Shown piece after piece: positions 30,769-45,693 of a stretch of DNA of 64,000 nt. Made by a program: the position numbers and the translations under genes. The notes under the pieces are model-generated. The model worked only from the letters and a program-made list of their open reading frames with translations. It did not search any database and was not told the origin of the DNA. Position 1 is the first letter of the stretch. Each line of letters begins with the position of its first letter. The DNA comes from Salinigranum halophilum. Lineage in GTDB: Archaea; Halobacteriota; Halobacteria; Halobacteriales; Haloferacaceae. The stretch covers positions 558,001 through 622,000 of the forward strand of contig NZ_SSNL01000003.1 in assembly GCF_007004735.1 (NCBI RefSeq), given 5' to 3'.

Positions 30769-31770
30769 TCAGGGCGTCGGTGCCGCCTTCTGCAGCGCCG
30801 TCTCGGCGATGTTGCCGCCGTAGTCCGCCGAGCGGGAGACCGAGTCGACGATGAGGCCGAGCACCTGCGCGCGGGCGGGGTCGAGTTCACGGAGGTACTC
30901 GTCGATGGCGCGGGCGCGTTCGTCGATGGCCTGGACGGCCTCGCGTGCCTCGTTGGCGAGGCGGGTCGCCTCCGAACTGTCCTCTTCGAACAGGGCGTCC
31001 ATCCCGTCGTCGACGACGTTGGCGGCGTCCTCGCGGAGTTCTTCGAGCGCGTCGACGATCTCGTCGGGGACGGCCTTCTCGAGGTTCAAGGTGAGGTGGG
31101 CGATCTTCGTCGCGTGGTCGGCGATGCGTTCGAGTTGGCGGGCAGCCGACTGGTAGTCGAAGCACATCTCGCGGGGGAGGCCGAGTTCCTCGGCGGCCTT
31201 CGGGGTCCGGAGCGTGGCTCGGAAGATACGCGAGACGACCATCCAGAGGCGGTCGACGTCCTCGTCGCGCTGGATGACGTCGCGCGCCATGTCCTCGTCG
31301 AGGTCACCGAGCGCGAGGAGCGCGTCGTCGAGCATCGACAGTGCGATGAGTCGCATCCGGGTGACGGCGTTGTGAATCGACAGCTCCGAGGAGTCCAGGA
31401 GGTCGCGGATGACCACCCGGTCTCGGGTCTCTTCTAACACCTCGAGACCGACGAGACTCTGGGTGGCCTTTCGGATGGTGCGGCGCTGGTCGGTCGTGAT
31501 GCGGGCGCTCTCGAGGGCGATGATGTCGAACCCCGAGACGTACATGGTCATCACGGCGCGCGTGAGTTCGTCGCCCTCCAGGGTCGTGACGTCCAGCGTC
31601 CCCTCGGTCCGCTCTTCTTCCGACCGTGGGGTGAGGAACAACGAGTCTCCCTCCGGATAGAACTCGACCTCGCTCCCCGCCGACACGCCGTTCTCTGTCG
31701 CCCAGTCCTTCGGAATCGAGACGGTGTACGTCGAGCCACCGGTGACCTGCACCTTGCGCGTTTCCACCAT
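30769..31770 (-). CDS. AbrB-PhoU fusion phosphate regulator 1
   Basis: The 333-residue protein joins an N-terminal SpoVT/AbrB DNA-binding domain (about 1-50: ETRKVQVTGGSTYTVSIPKDW) to a PhoU-like helical bundle (about 100-330) with QLERIADHATKIAHL and DYGGNIAETA. PhoU proteins restrain Pst transport and relay phosphate status; the AbrB part could let this one bind DNA directly. It is divergent from pstS1. CTATAAATTT at 31795-31804 gives a TATA box 28 nt before the ATG. A near-palindrome ACCGATTGATTGGT (31771-31784) covers the predicted transcription start and may be its own operator. Confidence 0.88.
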   Translation of the reverse strand: MVETRKVQVTGGSTYTVSIPKDWATENGVSAGSEVEFYPEGDSLFLTPRSEEERTEGTLDVTTLEGDELTRAVMTMYVSGFDIIALESARITTDQRRTIRKATQSLVGLEVLEETRDRVVIRDLLDSSELSIHNAVTRMRLIALSMLDDALLALGDLDEDMARDVIQRDEDVDRLWMVVSRIFRATLRTPKAAEELGLPREMCFDYQSAARQLERIADHATKIAHLTLNLEKAVPDEIVDALEELREDAANVVDDGMDALFEEDSSEATRLANEAREAVQAIDERARAIDEYLRELDPARAQVLGLIVDSVSRSADYGGNIAETALQKAAPTP

Positions 31771-32062
31771 ACCGATTGATTGGTAGGCATCCCACTATAA
31801 ATTTGGCTATCGATATATATCTCTCAGCTGCCACCGGTCCGAATCCGCTGCTGCGGCGCAGAGCCGTCCAATCGTGCCGGCTTTCTCCCGACCGACTCTC
31901 CGCGTCCGCTGTCGCGGAAAGTCGCTCTGCCACCGCTCTCAAGCCTCCGCGAGCCGTTCTGTCCGCCGGCGTGTCTATTGAGATTCTGACCGGGTTTTTC
32001 ACAAACATAGTACTATATATTTATATTAGTAGAGTATTTACTTGTCTCTCCGCCACTCTGTG
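31771..32062. promoter_or_regulatory. Divergent promoter region of regulator 1 and pstS1
   Basis: The region includes the regulator TATA (31795-31804), the AT-rich ATCGATATATAT (31809-31820), TTTTTCAC (31995-32002) and the very strong AT tract ACTATATATTTATATTA (32012-32028) that serves pstS1. ATCGATATAT recurs upstream of pstS2 and TTTTTCAC recurs before pstC1, so these are candidate phosphate-control sites. A GC-rich, gene-free stretch (31825-31980) separates the two promoters. Confidence 0.5.
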
Positions 32063-32065
32063 ATG

Positions 32066-33097
32066 ATGACACGGAAGGGTGATTTCCTCTCGCGACGCGA
32101 CTTCGTGATCGGCGCCGGCGCGGCCGGCGTGGCCAGCCTCGCAGGCTGTACCCGCCAGAACACCGAGGGTGGCTCCGACGGCTCCGGCGGGTCCAGTGGC
32201 TCCGACGGGTCGTCCGATGGCGCGCTCTCTGGCCCCATCGACATCGCGGGCTCGTCGACCGTGTTCCCGCTGGCGACCGCGTTCAGCGAGATCTTCAAAG
32301 AGGAACACCCCGACGTCGAGTTCAGCCTCCAGTCGACCGGCTCCGGCGGTGGGTTCCAGAACTTCTTCTGCGTCGGCGAGACGGATTTCAACAACGCCTC
32401 CCGCCCCATCTCGCCCGAGGAGGAGACCCTCTGCTCCGACAACAGCGTCGAACCCGTTGAGCTCCAGGTCGCCACCGACGCACTGACCGTCATCGTCAAC
32501 AACGACAACGACTGGGCGGAGTCACTCACCGTCGAGCAGCTCCGGCAGATCTGGTCCGCAGAGGACCCGCCGAGCACGTGGTCGGACATCGACTCCGACT
32601 GGCCCGACGAAGAGCTCGAACTGTTCGGCCCGACCGACGCCTCGGGGACCTACGACTACTTCATCGAGGCCGTCATCGGTGAGGAGGGACCGGGTCACCG
32701 CCAGGACTACTCGCCGACGGAACAGGACCGCACCATCATCCGCGGTGTCGAGGGCTCGCAGTACGCCATGGGCTACATGGGCTTCGCGTACTACAGCCAG
32801 AGTTCGGACGCGGTGACGGCCATCGCCATCGACAGCGGCGACGGCCCCGTCGAACCGTCACTCGAGACGGCGAAATCCGGCGAGTACACGCCGCTCTCGC
32901 GCCCGCTGTTCACCTACCCCGCGACGTCCTCGCTCACCGAGCCGCAGGTCGCCGAGTTCGCCCGCTTCTGGATGGAGAACACGACCAACGAGGAGGTCGT
33001 CGCCGACGAGGTCGGGTACGTCCCGCTCGACAGCGACCAGCAGCAGGCGCAACTCGACACGCTCGAAGCCGCCATCGAGGACGCACAGTCGAACTGA
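32066..33097 (+). CDS. pstS1: Phosphate ABC transporter substrate-binding protein, system 1
   Basis: The 343-residue protein has a Tat signal with lipobox (SRRDFVIG, Cys28 in SLAGC), so it folds in the cytoplasm and is lipid-anchored outside. A Gly/Ser linker leads to the PstS fold with the phosphate-binding segment IAGSSTVFPLATAFSE, GSGGGFQNFFCVGETDFNNASRPI-type loop and GPTDASGTYDY. It captures phosphate for PstC1A1B1. ATG 32063 is equally possible. The gene heads a four-gene operon and is preceded by the strongest AT tract in the region. Confidence 0.93.
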   Translation: MTRKGDFLSRRDFVIGAGAAGVASLAGCTRQNTEGGSDGSGGSSGSDGSSDGALSGPIDIAGSSTVFPLATAFSEIFKEEHPDVEFSLQSTGSGGGFQNFFCVGETDFNNASRPISPEEETLCSDNSVEPVELQVATDALTVIVNNDNDWAESLTVEQLRQIWSAEDPPSTWSDIDSDWPDEELELFGPTDASGTYDYFIEAVIGEEGPGHRQDYSPTEQDRTIIRGVEGSQYAMGYMGFAYYSQSSDAVTAIAIDSGDGPVEPSLETAKSGEYTPLSRPLFTYPATSSLTEPQVAEFARFWMENTTNEEVVADEVGYVPLDSDQQQAQLDTLEAAIEDAQSN

Positions 33098-33165: not shown

Positions 33166-34125
33166 ATGAGCACGGACGACATCACGAACGACCTCACACG
33201 GAACACGGAGAACGCGCCGGAGGAGCTCCTGACGCGCGCGTTCTTCTTCCTGTGTGCGGCGCTGTCGATCGTCACGACGGTCAGCATCATCCTGCTGCTC
33301 GTGACCGAGGCGGCGAAGTTCTTCACCGTCACCGCGCCGCTCATGGGTATCGAGGGGCCGACAGCGTCCGTCGTCGACTTCCTCACCGGCACGACCTGGG
33401 AGATCAACAACAACGAGTTCGGCGTCCTCGCGCTCGTCTCCGCCACGCTGATGATCACCATCGGCTCGGCCATCGTCGCACTCCCGCTGGGTGTCGCGAC
33501 GGCGATCTACCTCAGCGAGTACGCCAACCCCCGCCACCGCGCCTTCCTGAAGCCGGCACTCGAGGTGCTGGCCGGTATCCCGACCGTCGTCTACGGGTTC
33601 TTCGCGCTCATCTACATCACGCCCGCCATCCAGACCGTCCTCCCGGGGACCGGCACGTTCAACCTCATCTCGGCCAGCCTCGTCGTCGGCATCATGATCA
33701 TCCCGATGGTCGCCTCCATCAGCGAGGACGCGATGTCGGCCGTCCCCGACGAACTCCGGCAGGCCGGGTACGGGATGGGTGCGACGAAGTTCGACGTCTC
33801 GACGGGTATCGTCGTGCCCGCCGCGCTGTCGGGCATCTTCTCGTCGTTCATCCTCGCGCTCTCGCGAGCCATCGGCGAGACGATGGCCGTCACCGTCGCC
33901 GCGGGGTCGCGCGCGCAGTTCCTCAACCCGCTCAACCCCGCCGCGTACCAGGAGGGGGCGCTCCCGATGACCGCCGCGATGGTCCAGTTGCTCCTGGGCG
34001 ACATCACCGGTGGGGGGCTCGCGTACCGCAGCCTGTTCGCCATCGGCCTCACGCTGTTCGTCATCACGCTCGTCATGAACATCATCAGCGACTTCGTCGC
34101 GCAACGCTACCGGGAGGAGTACTGA
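33166..34125 (+). CDS. pstC1: Phosphate ABC transporter permease PstC, system 1
   Basis: The 319-residue membrane protein has six core helices and the cytoplasmic coupling loop EDAMSAVPDELRQAGYGMGATKFD that contacts PstB. A periplasmic loop (about 60-75) precedes the core. It pairs with PstA1 to form the phosphate channel. The stop codon is separated by one base from the pstA1 start, so translation is coupled. Confidence 0.95.
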   Translation: MSTDDITNDLTRNTENAPEELLTRAFFFLCAALSIVTTVSIILLLVTEAAKFFTVTAPLMGIEGPTASVVDFLTGTTWEINNNEFGVLALVSATLMITIGSAIVALPLGVATAIYLSEYANPRHRAFLKPALEVLAGIPTVVYGFFALIYITPAIQTVLPGTGTFNLISASLVVGIMIIPMVASISEDAMSAVPDELRQAGYGMGATKFDVSTGIVVPAALSGIFSSFILALSRAIGETMAVTVAAGSRAQFLNPLNPAAYQEGALPMTAAMVQLLLGDITGGGLAYRSLFAIGLTLFVITLVMNIISDFVAQRYREEY

Positions 34126-34126
34126 G

Positions 34127-35779
<1,653 letters not shown>

Positions 35780-35788
35780 TCGACAACC

Positions 35789-36667
35789 ATGAGCGACAAA
35801 GAGACACAGACGATGGCCGAATCGACAGCCGGTGAATCGGCGGACCCGACCGAAGAGGACATGCTCGTCCAGACGGACGTGAGCGAGAGCGTCGAACAGG
35901 CTCGACGCCCCCCGGCGAAGACCGTCATCCGCGCCGAGGGCATCGACGTCTACTACAACGACGTGCAGGCGCTCGACGGCATCTCGATGGAGATCCCCGA
36001 GAACCGCGTCACCGCGATGATCGGGCCGTCGGGGTGTGGGAAGTCGACGTTCCTCCGGTGTGTCAACCGGATGAACGACCTCGTCGACGCCGCGAGAGTG
36101 GAAGGAAACCTCTACCTGCGCGGGAAGAACGTCTACGACGACGACGTCGACCCCGTCGCCCTTCGGCGACGCGTCGGGATGGTCTTCCAGAAGCCGAACC
36201 CCTTCCCGAAGAGCATCTACGACAACGTCGCGTACGGCCTCGAGATTCAGAACAAGGAGGGCGACTACGACGCCATCGTCGAGGAGTCGCTCAAGCGGGC
36301 GGCGCTGTGGGACGAAGTCAAGGACAAACTCGACGAGTCCGGCCTCGACCTCTCGGGCGGCCAGCAACAGCGGCTCTGTATCGCCCGCGCGATCGCGCCG
36401 GACCCCGAGGTCATCCTGATGGACGAACCTGCGTCCGCGCTGGACCCCATCGCCACCTCGAAGATCGAAGACCTCATCGCGGACCTCGCCGAGGAGTACA
36501 CGGTCGTCATCGTGACGCACAACATGCAGCAGGCCGCCCGCATCTCGGACAAGACCGCCGTCTTCCTCACCGGGGGCGAACTCGTCGAGTTCGACGACAC
36601 CCAGAAGATCTTCGAGAACCCCGAAAGCCAGCGCGTCGAGGACTACATCACCGGCAAGTTCGGGTAG
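35789..36667 (+). CDS. pstB1: Phosphate ABC transporter ATPase, system 1
   Basis: The 292-residue protein has an acidic N-terminal extension (about 1-45) and the PstB core: Walker [10 protein letters not shown] (about 80-88), [18 protein letters not shown], signature [14 protein letters not shown], Walker [14 protein letters not shown] and the [13 protein letters not shown] switch. It powers PstC1A1. In the second system the ATPase core is highly similar. phoU follows 109 bp downstream. Confidence 0.95.
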
Positions 36668-36776: not shown

Positions 36777-37451
36777 ATGCCTCGTGACGCGTACCAAGAC
36801 GCTCTCGAGACGCTCCGTGCGGACGTCGTGGCGTTCGGCGAACGGGTGTCGGACCAACTCGACGACGCCCTCCGGGCCATCGAGACCGACGACGACGCCC
36901 TCGCCACGGCTGTCATCGAGGGAGACGACGCCATCAACGAGCGCTACCTGGAACTCGAAGGCGACTGTATCGACCTCATCGCCCTCCAGCAACCGGTCGC
37001 GAGCGACCTCCGATTCGTCACCGCCTCGTTCAAGATCATCACCGAACTCGAACGGGTCGGCGACCTCGCGACCAACCTCTCGGCGTACGTCCACTCGGTC
37101 GACTCGCCACACTTTCCCGACGTGAGCCTCCTCGACGTCGGCCGACTCGCTCGCGAGATGGTCGACGAGGCGCTCGACGCCTACGACGGCGCGGACCCCG
37201 ACCGCGCGGCGGCCGTCGTCGAACGCGACGACGAACTCGACGGCCTCTGTGAACGGGTCGCCGAGACAGTCGTCCTCGAACTGGTCGAGACGACAGAGAC
37301 CTTCGCGGACGACGAACTGGCCGACCTGCTCTCGGAGGTGAACCTCCTCTTGCTCACGCTTCGGGACATCGAACGCGTCGGCGACCACGCCGTCAACATC
37401 GCCGCCCGGTCGTTCTACATGGTGACGAACCGGACGACGCTGCTGTACTGA
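36777..37451 (+). CDS. phoU: PhoU phosphate signalling protein, copy 1
   Basis: The 224-residue protein is a duplicated three-helix PhoU bundle with CIDLIALQQPVASDLRFV and FKIITELERVGDLATNL in the first half and RDIERVGDHAVNIAARSFYMV in the second. The paired E/D-R-x-GD motifs bind metal in known PhoU proteins. It probably inhibits Pst when phosphate is plentiful. It follows pstB1 and may be read from the pst1 promoter or from a weak TATA at about 36739-36752. It is very similar to the next gene and is likely a tandem duplicate. Confidence 0.93.
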   Translation: MPRDAYQDALETLRADVVAFGERVSDQLDDALRAIETDDDALATAVIEGDDAINERYLELEGDCIDLIALQQPVASDLRFVTASFKIITELERVGDLATNLSAYVHSVDSPHFPDVSLLDVGRLAREMVDEALDAYDGADPDRAAAVVERDDELDGLCERVAETVVLELVETTETFADDELADLLSEVNLLLLTLRDIERVGDHAVNIAARSFYMVTNRTTLLY

Positions 37452-37563: not shown

Positions 37564-38232
37564 ATGGCTCGACAAGCGTATCAGTCCCGCCTCCAGGGAC
37601 TCCGCGACGAGGTGCTCTACATGGGCGAACTCGTCGCCGAACAGCTCCGGACGGGGTTCGACGCCCTCGAAGGGAAGGACGACGAGTTGGCACAGGCGGT
37701 CATCGACGGCGACGAGGAGATCAACGGACTCTACCTCGAACTCGAGAAGGAGTGTATCGACCTCATCGCGCTCCAACAGCCCGTCGCCGGCGACCTCCGC
37801 TTCATCGCGTCGTCGTTCAAAATCATCACCGACCTCGAACGCATCGGCGACCTCGCGACCAACCTCGGCGGCTACGCCCTCCAGGCCGAGCGCGATGCCT
37901 ACCCCGAGGTCGACATCCGACGCATCGGCGACGCGACGCTCGAGATGCTCGAGCGGGCGCTCGAAGCGTACGCCAACGAGGACGTCGACGGCTGTTACGA
38001 CATCGCCGACCGCGACGACGAGGTCGACGCGATGTGTCAGGTGGCGAGTCAGACCGTCGTGCGCTCGCTCCTCGAAGCCGACTCGTTGGAACAGGACGTC
38101 GACGAGACGTTCCAGGACGTCTCTCGGCTCTTCCTCACGATTCGCGACCTCGAGCGTGTCGGCGACCACGCCGTCAACATCGCCGCCCGCACACTCTACA
38201 TGGTCGAGCAGAACGACGAACTGCTGTACTGA
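37564..38232 (+). CDS. phoU: PhoU phosphate signalling protein, copy 2
   Basis: The 222-residue protein aligns along its whole length with the preceding phoU: CIDLIALQQPVAGDLRFI, FKIITDLERIGDLATNL and RDLERVGDHAVNIAARTLYMV. It is a complete two-bundle PhoU. Because two Pst transporters flank these genes, each copy may serve one system. A perfect hairpin CGACCG-ATA-CGGTCG (38235-38249) follows just after the stop and may end its transcript. Confidence 0.92.
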   Translation: MARQAYQSRLQGLRDEVLYMGELVAEQLRTGFDALEGKDDELAQAVIDGDEEINGLYLELEKECIDLIALQQPVAGDLRFIASSFKIITDLERIGDLATNLGGYALQAERDAYPEVDIRRIGDATLEMLERALEAYANEDVDGCYDIADRDDEVDAMCQVASQTVVRSLLEADSLEQDVDETFQDVSRLFLTIRDLERVGDHAVNIAARTLYMVEQNDELLY

Positions 38233-39328: not shown

Positions 39329-40354
39329 TCACAGCCGGTCGTCGCGCATCGCCGCCTGCAGGGCGACGTCGCCGATGGCGTCCCCGTGGTCGAGCGTTCT
39401 GCGGAGGGCGTCGAGACACCGTGCGACCGCGACGACGTCCCTCGTGGTGCTCGCCGACATCTCGCTTCGGTCGGCGACCAGTGCGTCCTCGAACGCCTCC
39501 AGGGTCGCCCGCGCCTCCGTACCGGTGTCGAGTATCTCGTGGACCCTGTCGGTGTCGCGGCCCTCGAGGACCGCGTTCGAGGCGCCCTCGACGATTCCCC
39601 GCGCGGTGTTCGAGAGGACGTCGAGTTCGGCGGCGACCGTCTCGGGGAGCGGCTCCGTCAGCCGTCGACCCGCGCGGGCGATGGTGACGCCGTTTCGTGC
39701 GACTCGCCTGAGCCGCCGGGCGGTCTCGTAATACTCGAACAGTTCGGGACGACTCGTCTCGACCCGGTCGACTTCCGCCAGCGAGACGAGCGCGCGACTG
39801 AAGTGCCGGACCACCATCCCACAGAGTCGGTCGGTCTCGGTCTCGCGTTCGCACAGCCGGTCGTACGCTCCCGCGTCGGCGTCGACGAACGACCCCGTGG
39901 CCTGCTCGTGGACGGAGAGGGCGACGTACTGGAGTTGGACGACGGATTGTCGGACCGAGACGTCGGAGGCGTCGAGCAGGTTCCGGACGGTCAGTTCGCC
40001 CTCCTGTTCGTCGACCAGTTCGGTCCCGACGAACTGGCGGACGAGCGACCGGACCGCCCGACACGTCTCGGCGTCGAACGGCTCTCCGGCGGTGAGCGTC
40101 ACCCGCTCGAAGCCGACGGCCTGCGCCGCGCTGAGGGCACGCGCGACCTGTTCTCTCCCGCCGTCGACCTCGACGGTGATGGTCGAGAGCCCGTCGCTGT
40201 CTTTCGCGCGGCTCCGGACGACGATCGAGCCGTCGAGGTGGCTGTAGAGGTTGACAGGGGTCCCCGCCTCGAGGCCGCGGGCGGTCGCCCACTCCTTCGG
40301 AATCGAGACCGTGTACGTCCCGCCGCCGACCTGCTGGAGCTTTCGCGTCTCCAT
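39329..40354 (-). CDS. AbrB-PhoU fusion phosphate regulator 2
   Basis: The 341-residue protein has the same domain order as regulator 1: SpoVT/AbrB DNA-binding domain (METRKLQQVGGGTYTVSIPK, about 1-50) and a divergent PhoU bundle (about 100-335). The second PhoU repeat has drifted: the ER-GD metal motif is weak (RRVARNGVTIARA), so metal or Pst contact may be altered. It lies downstream of pstB2 on the same strand. An inverted repeat CGTCACC-15-GGTGACG (40355-40383) is directly before the ATG and may be an operator or a translational hairpin. Confidence 0.85.
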   Translation of the reverse strand: METRKLQQVGGGTYTVSIPKEWATARGLEAGTPVNLYSHLDGSIVVRSRAKDSDGLSTITVEVDGGREQVARALSAAQAVGFERVTLTAGEPFDAETCRAVRSLVRQFVGTELVDEQEGELTVRNLLDASDVSVRQSVVQLQYVALSVHEQATGSFVDADAGAYDRLCERETETDRLCGMVVRHFSRALVSLAEVDRVETSRPELFEYYETARRLRRVARNGVTIARAGRRLTEPLPETVAAELDVLSNTARGIVEGASNAVLEGRDTDRVHEILDTGTEARATLEAFEDALVADRSEMSASTTRDVVAVARCLDALRRTLDHGDAIGDVALQAAMRDDRL

Positions 40355-40383
40355 CGTCACCCACCGAACGTCGGCCGGTGACG
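40355..40383 (-). promoter_or_regulatory. Inverted repeat before AbrB-PhoU regulator 2
   Basis: CGTCACC (40355-40361) and GGTGACG (40377-40383) are perfect 7-bp arms 15 bp apart, and inner CACCG/CGGTG could extend them. The element starts one base upstream of the ATG, so it could hide the start in mRNA or bind a protein. Confidence 0.35.
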
Positions 40384-40431
40384 AGACGGGCCGTCGACGT
40401 CCGACGAGCGGCTCCCGGTTGCTGTCATCGG

Positions 40432-45419: not shown

Positions 45420-45693
45420 CACCTGAGTGAAGCCGAGATTTGATTAAAGCGGTTTATAATACCCGTATCGAGTCCTCACCGGCGTTCGGGAGCAGAAAGT
45501 TCGAACAGAGACGACCCCATCGATATATCACGAACATACGACTCACTCTCACTCATACGTCTCGATACTCTATATACACGCTCTCGTCACACGCCGTCAC
45601 GACTGGCGCGGTGTGTCGGAGCGCCGCAGGCAGAAGCCGAACGACGGGCGCGCACACGACAGACGCGGACGAGTCGAGTCGCGTGGTGGGCCG
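45420..45693 (-). promoter_or_regulatory. pstS2 promoter region
   Basis: The 274-bp gap after cdc48 is AT-rich for this genome. TTATAAACC (about 45452-45460) is the probable TATA, giving a short leader. ATCGATATAT (45519-45528) recurs upstream of pstS1, and CTATATACACG lies near 45571. No gene is seen. Confidence 0.5.

Follow-up and report, generated by a model that had tools for sequence, protein, structure and literature searches.

An AbrB-PhoU Fusion Protein of Salinigranum halophilum, Candidate One-Chain Regulator of Phosphate Uptake, and Conserved Elements in the pst Promoter and in Its Own

The protein encoded beside the first pst operon of Salinigranum halophilum joins an AbrB domain, a middle domain, and a PhoU helical bundle in one chain and is, on balance, probably a regulator of phosphate uptake, an activator or dual regulator of pst that would bind two conserved promoter elements, a 28-bp element at pstS and a TATATA(G/T) box in its own promoter. 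This reading is drawn from sequence patterns in the window (the whole 64-kb stretch of DNA analyzed here) and in related genomes. To our knowledge, how archaea sense phosphate without PhoR-PhoB is still an open question. An element recurring at pst promoters across much of the order, together with a related box in the regulator's own promoter, allows short, specific binding and mutation tests, and the conserved element corrects the operator proposed earlier.

The regulator gene (termed class I) is divergent from pstSCAB-phoU-phoU (Table 1). The original prediction had described it as divergent from pstS1, which agrees with the profile matches (TIGR02136 above cut-off, then pstC, pstA, pstB, and two phoU genes). 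Its remark that a clear PhoR-PhoB pair is generally lacking in haloarchaea is in line with our search for Trans_reg_C (PF00486, the OmpR/PhoB-type winged helix), which gave no match in the S. halophilum genome at E 0.001 and matched 10 of 14 control genomes; this absence agrees with there being no PhoB-type regulator. The likely TATA box ends at 32040, which is why we place the start of pstS1 at ATG 32063 or 32066 and not at TTG 32042. The TTG, start of the longest open reading frame, lies barely behind that box, and either ATG agrees with the promoter and with relatives. A start at ATG 32063 or 32066 suggests a leaderless pstS1 transcript.

Table 1. Features of the window around the two pst operons
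Feature	Position	Strand	Remarks
AbrB-PhoU regulator gene (class I)	30769..31770	-	ORF, 333 aa; apparent HVO_2374 PhoU2 ortholog
PhoU helical bundle, residues 126-331	30778..31395	-	PF01895 and fold match; first-half ExxxD (E214, D218) kept
Middle domain, residues 54-125	31396..31611	-	beta-alpha-beta-alpha-beta-beta; predicted IF3-C/Alba/TusA-like fold
MazE/AbrB domain, residues 8-52	31615..31749	-	PF04014, E 1.7e-11
Own promoter	31796..31819	-	TATATAT box and, after 11 bp, TTTATA (likely TATA box)
ATAGTACTAT	32007..32016	+	perfect 10-bp palindrome overlapping the pst element
pst promoter element CTATATAT-TTATATTAGTAGA-GTATTTA	32013..32040	+	candidate pho-box and TATA box
pstS1, lipoprotein	32063..33097	+	TIGR02136 above cut-off; start ATG 32063 or 32066
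pstC1	33166..34125	+	TIGR02138 above cut-off
pstA1	34127..35779	+	TIGR00974 above cut-off
pstB1	35789..36667	+	TIGR00972 above cut-off
Stand-alone phoU	36777..37451	+	TIGR02135 above cut-off
Second stand-alone phoU	37564..38232	+	TIGR02135 above cut-off
Second AbrB-PhoU gene (class II), 28% identical	39332..40360	-	beside pstB of the second pst operon

The fusion of an AbrB domain to a PhoU bundle, as first predicted, was confirmed: MazE_antitoxin (PF04014) scored 44.3 bits against a curated cut-off of 24.7 (Pfam, residues 8 to 52), PhoU (PF01895) scored 75.1 bits against 23.5 (Pfam, E 5.7e-21, residues 136 to 226), and a predicted model of residues 126 to 330 matched the solved PhoU 1t72_G with Z 25.7 (2.4 Å, 197 residues aligned). 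PF01895 covers the first PhoU half only of the 333-residue protein, and the full-length PhoU equivalog TIGR02135 stayed below its cut-off (61.1 bits against 130.25), so the protein is a PhoU-domain fusion and not a stand-alone PhoU. Among 21 aligned AbrB-PhoU proteins, E214 and D218 are present in at least 90%, and 8 of the 13 invariant columns of the alignment fall in residues 5 to 32; where the metal motif E(D)xxxD would stand, the second PhoU half reads DSVSRSAD. The full chain was modelled with AlphaFold2 from an alignment of 41 sequences (mean pLDDT, 83.1; pTM, 0.72), with a poorly modelled N-terminal domain (block pLDDT of 39 to 66 over residues 1 to 50). Row 2 of that alignment (39356 to 40384, class II) was shifted, opening 8 codons ahead of the gene's likely start and stopping 8 codons short of its end, an offset in 1 of 41 rows whose effect on the model we judge to be small.

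Neither the domain between AbrB and PhoU nor the conserved promoter elements appeared in the original prediction. Residues 54 to 125 gave no Pfam match at E 0.001, Alba included. Modelled alone (pLDDT, 90.8; pTM, 0.80), they matched archaeal Alba 2z7c best (Z 9.3, 2.2 Å, 72 aligned); TusA, SirA, Smr, and SepF followed at most about 1.5 Z lower, and IF3-C was also among the matches. The best Foldseek E value was no better than 0.033. The domain is 72 to 95% identical across 35 chosen relatives. Membership of the IF3-C/Alba/TusA/Smr/SepF fold group is a fair prediction from the model, and this fold gives no function by itself.

The pst element was derived from upstream regions of PstS-like genes at 44 loci, where column counts in 42 of them give CTATATAG-N3-T-N-ATAG-Y-AG-N-GTA(T/C)TTA. 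The 28-bp pattern, CTATATAG-N3-TNATAG-NAG-N-GTATTTA, ends in the likely TATA box of pstS, with the remainder directly upstream, and its best match starts 52 to 54 nt before the ATG at 40 of the 44 loci. Because the pstS matrix was fitted to the same 44 sequences that it describes, several of them weak, pattern searches (up to 3 mismatches allowed) serve as the test of the element. The pattern was found in 41 of 60 genomes (S. halophilum included), exactly once in each, with no match in the reversed control. All 41 sites (42 rows, one site being in two loci) precede a pst-like ORF, 38 a pstS and 3 a pstB, with 29 to 94 nt separating the site's first base from the start chosen for the ORF. By hand count, 36 of the sites are in an intergenic region shared with the regulator; the other five also stand before PstS-like genes. 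In S. halophilum the single site, 32013 to 32040, has 2 mismatches to the pattern, and a scan of the 64-kb window with the pstS matrix returned one strong site.

Across the order, the element was found in 171 of 243 genomes (reversed control, 4 matches in 3 genomes). Two or more sites were present in 13 of the 56 genomes with at least two class I genes versus 5 of the 187 others (p 5e-6), in a test that ignores kinship and uses hand counts and copy numbers that may be lower bounds. Asking whether genomes with class I also have the site tests the link only weakly, because 237 of the 243 genomes have a close relative of the regulator (E 1e-80 or better) and 240 have a PstC relative. No site at 3 mismatches was found in 15 of the 56 members of the 60-genome set whose class I match reaches E 1e-80 or better, in any of the 14 genomes of one genus (g14), or in 8 of 9 genomes of another (g143), all genomes of both genera having class I and a PstC relative. 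Two of the six genomes without a class I match (G249 and G448, fragmented assemblies of 120 and 330 contigs) have the site.

A near-palindrome over the regulator's own start had also been proposed as an operator. The sequence is there (ACCGATTGATTGGT, 31771 to 31784, 5 of 7 arm pairs), but we reject the operator role in view of comparable windows and of the lack of conservation within the genus. In the 292-bp intergenic region, 13 windows, which overlap in part, have at least 5 of 7 pairs (shuffled mean, 4.0), the region overall being rich in palindrome-like windows relative to shuffled sequence; the single window with 6 pairs contains ATAGTACTAT. In three same-genus genomes, 6, 5, and 5 of the 14 bases agree with ACCGATTGATTGGT, and across 58 other loci the mean was 4.4 of 14 (maximum, 8). 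The near-palindrome is probably due to chance, and by its conservation the 28-bp element is the likelier control site.

The regulator's own promoter carries a related signal. A TATATA(G/T) box near -48 (start, -58 to -40) was found at 42 of 59 class I loci; 300 rounds of shuffling gave on average 1.0 such locus and never more than 4. A further set comprised the 80 best-scoring loci, which are therefore close relatives and may overlap the other surveyed genomes; these are called named loci, and one (L143) was left out for too little upstream DNA. The box was present at -60 to -38 in 71 of the remaining 79. Forty of the 79, many of them Halorubrum, have no divergent PstS or PstB within 900 nt; the box is kept in 39 of these 40, and the 28-bp site was found within 900 nt in none. 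The box thus tracks the regulator, whereas the longer element tracks pst. Where PstS or PstB is divergent, 31 of 39 named loci have the 28-bp site and 8 do not. At L118, L122, and other loci of this kind, in Halorubrum and certain further genera, no pst gene neighbors the regulator, and its own box is mostly kept.

A regulon beyond pst and the regulator is not claimed: the wider pattern TATATAK-N{9,15}-TTTA gave 6 matches in the S. halophilum genome and 6 in the reversed control, and the four of these loci that were read (L156, L158, L160, and L161) offered no convincing further target.

A match to the regulator at E 0.001 was present in 60 of 60 genomes (S. halophilum included), and a profile search at 1e-10 matched 279 of the 294 phylum genomes; outside the order, among the matches listed, the rows span nearly the whole profile model. 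In the 1.5 to 3 kb flanking 60 class I loci, tblastn placed a PstS relative upstream of the regulator at 41 loci, PstB at 5 (in one case arranged in tandem instead of divergently), and a stand-alone PhoU as the sole match at 2, neighbors being counted by hand. All 10 Haloferax loci (L076 to L079, L081, L082, L085, and L087 to L089) have the same divergent order, with proteins 87 to 89% identical. From this synteny and these other Haloferax species, the class I gene is the apparent ortholog of HVO_2374 (PhoU2).

The S. halophilum genome has three AbrB-PhoU genes. The class II gene belongs to a second pst operon on the minus strand, right of the first (39332 to about 45420), and the third lies elsewhere in the genome. 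In a tree of 71 proteins, class II is set apart (100/99). No single branch separates class I from the rest, and several branches are very long; the class names therefore serve merely as labels. One locus (L064) was left out of both the tree and the 59-promoter set. The PhoU half of the class II paralog lacks the ExxxD residues, reading LRRVARN where class I reads LERIADH. The promoter of the second operon (about 45440 to 45580, minus strand) is without the 28-bp element (pstS-matrix score, -3.3). It has TATATAG at 45576 (minus strand) and ATTATAAACCGCTTTA closer to the gene. Elsewhere, similar CATAGAAA/TATAAACC-CTTTA forms precede PstS-like or other lipoprotein genes (L028, L030, and L040).

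We infer the binder, the signal, and the sign of regulation from these arrangements as follows. The AbrB domain, probably dimeric, would bind the CTATATAG/ATAG half-sites that immediately precede the pstS TATA box and would also bind the related TATATA(G/T) box in its own promoter, giving autoregulation; the conserved element at pst and the box at the regulator's promoter support both pst control and autoregulation. The PhoU domain would read phosphate status, either through a bound ligand or metal or through docking on PstB, as proposed for stand-alone PhoU, and that status would alter DNA binding. On starvation, the regulator would most likely activate pst, or activate and repress it. Archaeal activators usually bind upstream of the TATA box, where most of the element sits. 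We favor activation or dual regulation because most of the element is upstream of the TATA box and because pho-boxes in Halobacterium are reported to be needed for upregulation (PMC6560208). Several observations weigh against this reading: genomes and divergent loci with class I but no site, among them all of genus g14; the second pst operon of the window, which lacks the element; the two genomes with a site but no class I match; the 2 mismatches of the S. halophilum site; the paralogs as possible binders; and the poorly modelled N-terminal domain.

The original prediction had named a one-component phosphate repressor. DNA-binding and PhoU domains in one chain tied to pst are upheld by synteny and the promoter elements; repression is not favored over activation. 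A simple repressor, blocking TFB/TBP at the promoter when phosphate is present and releasing it on starvation, seems to us rather unlikely. The element does run into the TATA box, so a bound protein could block TBP/TFB, and PMC6267482 argues by analogy that loss of a bacterial PhoU2 raises Pi transport; however, most of the element is upstream of the TATA box, the Halobacterium pho-boxes are called essential for upregulation (PMC6560208, second-hand for Furtwangler 2010), and the proposed palindrome ACCGATTGATTGGT is not conserved.

We assign a similarly low probability to the element being bound by a class II or class III AbrB-PhoU protein or by a different regulator, with class I acting on transport or on other targets. 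The two other AbrB-PhoU proteins of the same genome are possible binders, at least two AbrB-PhoU matches were present in 54 of 60 genomes (some possibly stand-alone PhoU), and sites without class I (G249 and G448) and class I without sites (genus g14) both occur; against this, a class I gene adjoins 36 of 41 sites, and 71 of 79 named loci keep the class I promoter box. That the AbrB-like domain serves only dimerization and the protein does not bind DNA is very improbable: this domain is the poorest part of the model, but it holds 8 of 13 invariant columns in residues 5 to 32, and Thermococcus kodakarensis TK2245 is listed among chromosome-associated proteins (PMC7325993).

Activation or dual regulation by the class I protein thus named as the preferred reading, a broader proposal is conceivable, though doubtful: in Haloarchaea, the three-domain chain (AbrB, IF3-C/Alba-like, PhoU) may have assumed the entire role of PhoR and PhoB, as an autoregulated activator that occupies an array of ATAG/CTAT half-sites immediately before the TATA box and alternates between the pst promoter and membrane-located PstB. 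MalK, which holds MalT, offers an analogy for such switching.

Bacterial PhoU, which acts together with PhoR/PhoB, is not known to carry a DNA-binding domain. The class I protein has the PhoU fold in common with it (1t72, 4q25, 1xwm, and 1sum; Z 22.9 to 25.7) and keeps its first-half ExxxD, but differs in that Pfam matches the first half only and TIGR02135 reaches 61 of the 130 bits of its cut-off. Haloferax volcanii PhoU2 (HVO_2374), like the class I protein, has an N-terminal DNA-binding domain and PhoU and lies beside pstS1 (HVO_2375), and in 2018 it was predicted to regulate Pi uptake (PMC6267482); no operator is given in the available text of that paper, and our link to it is by synteny and other Haloferax species. 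The family, the pst link, and the regulatory prediction are therefore already published, and this analysis adds the promoter elements and the middle domain and discards the palindrome. A search of the literature outside subscription journals found no paper treating PhoU, AbrB, and haloarchaea together. Halobacterium NRC-1 prp1 (VNG0458G), a "phosphate regulatory protein homolog," is listed next to phoX, pstC2, pstA2, pstB2, and phoU (PMC1779511, Table 1) and, by description, is possibly of the same kind. Halobacterium phoU, whichever PhoU gene is meant, has been treated as a transcription factor, and its deletion strain shows growth phenotypes in a transcription-factor deletion set (PMC5605881); it is likened to class I by description. 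T. kodakarensis TK2245, a SpoVT/AbrB family protein with a PhoU domain, shares both annotated domains with class I, is likened to it by annotation, and was found to be chromosome associated by mass spectrometry (PMC7325993). The pho-boxes of two Halobacterium pst promoters are reported to be elements required for induction (PMC6560208, citing Furtwangler 2010), and the 28-bp element may be their counterpart.
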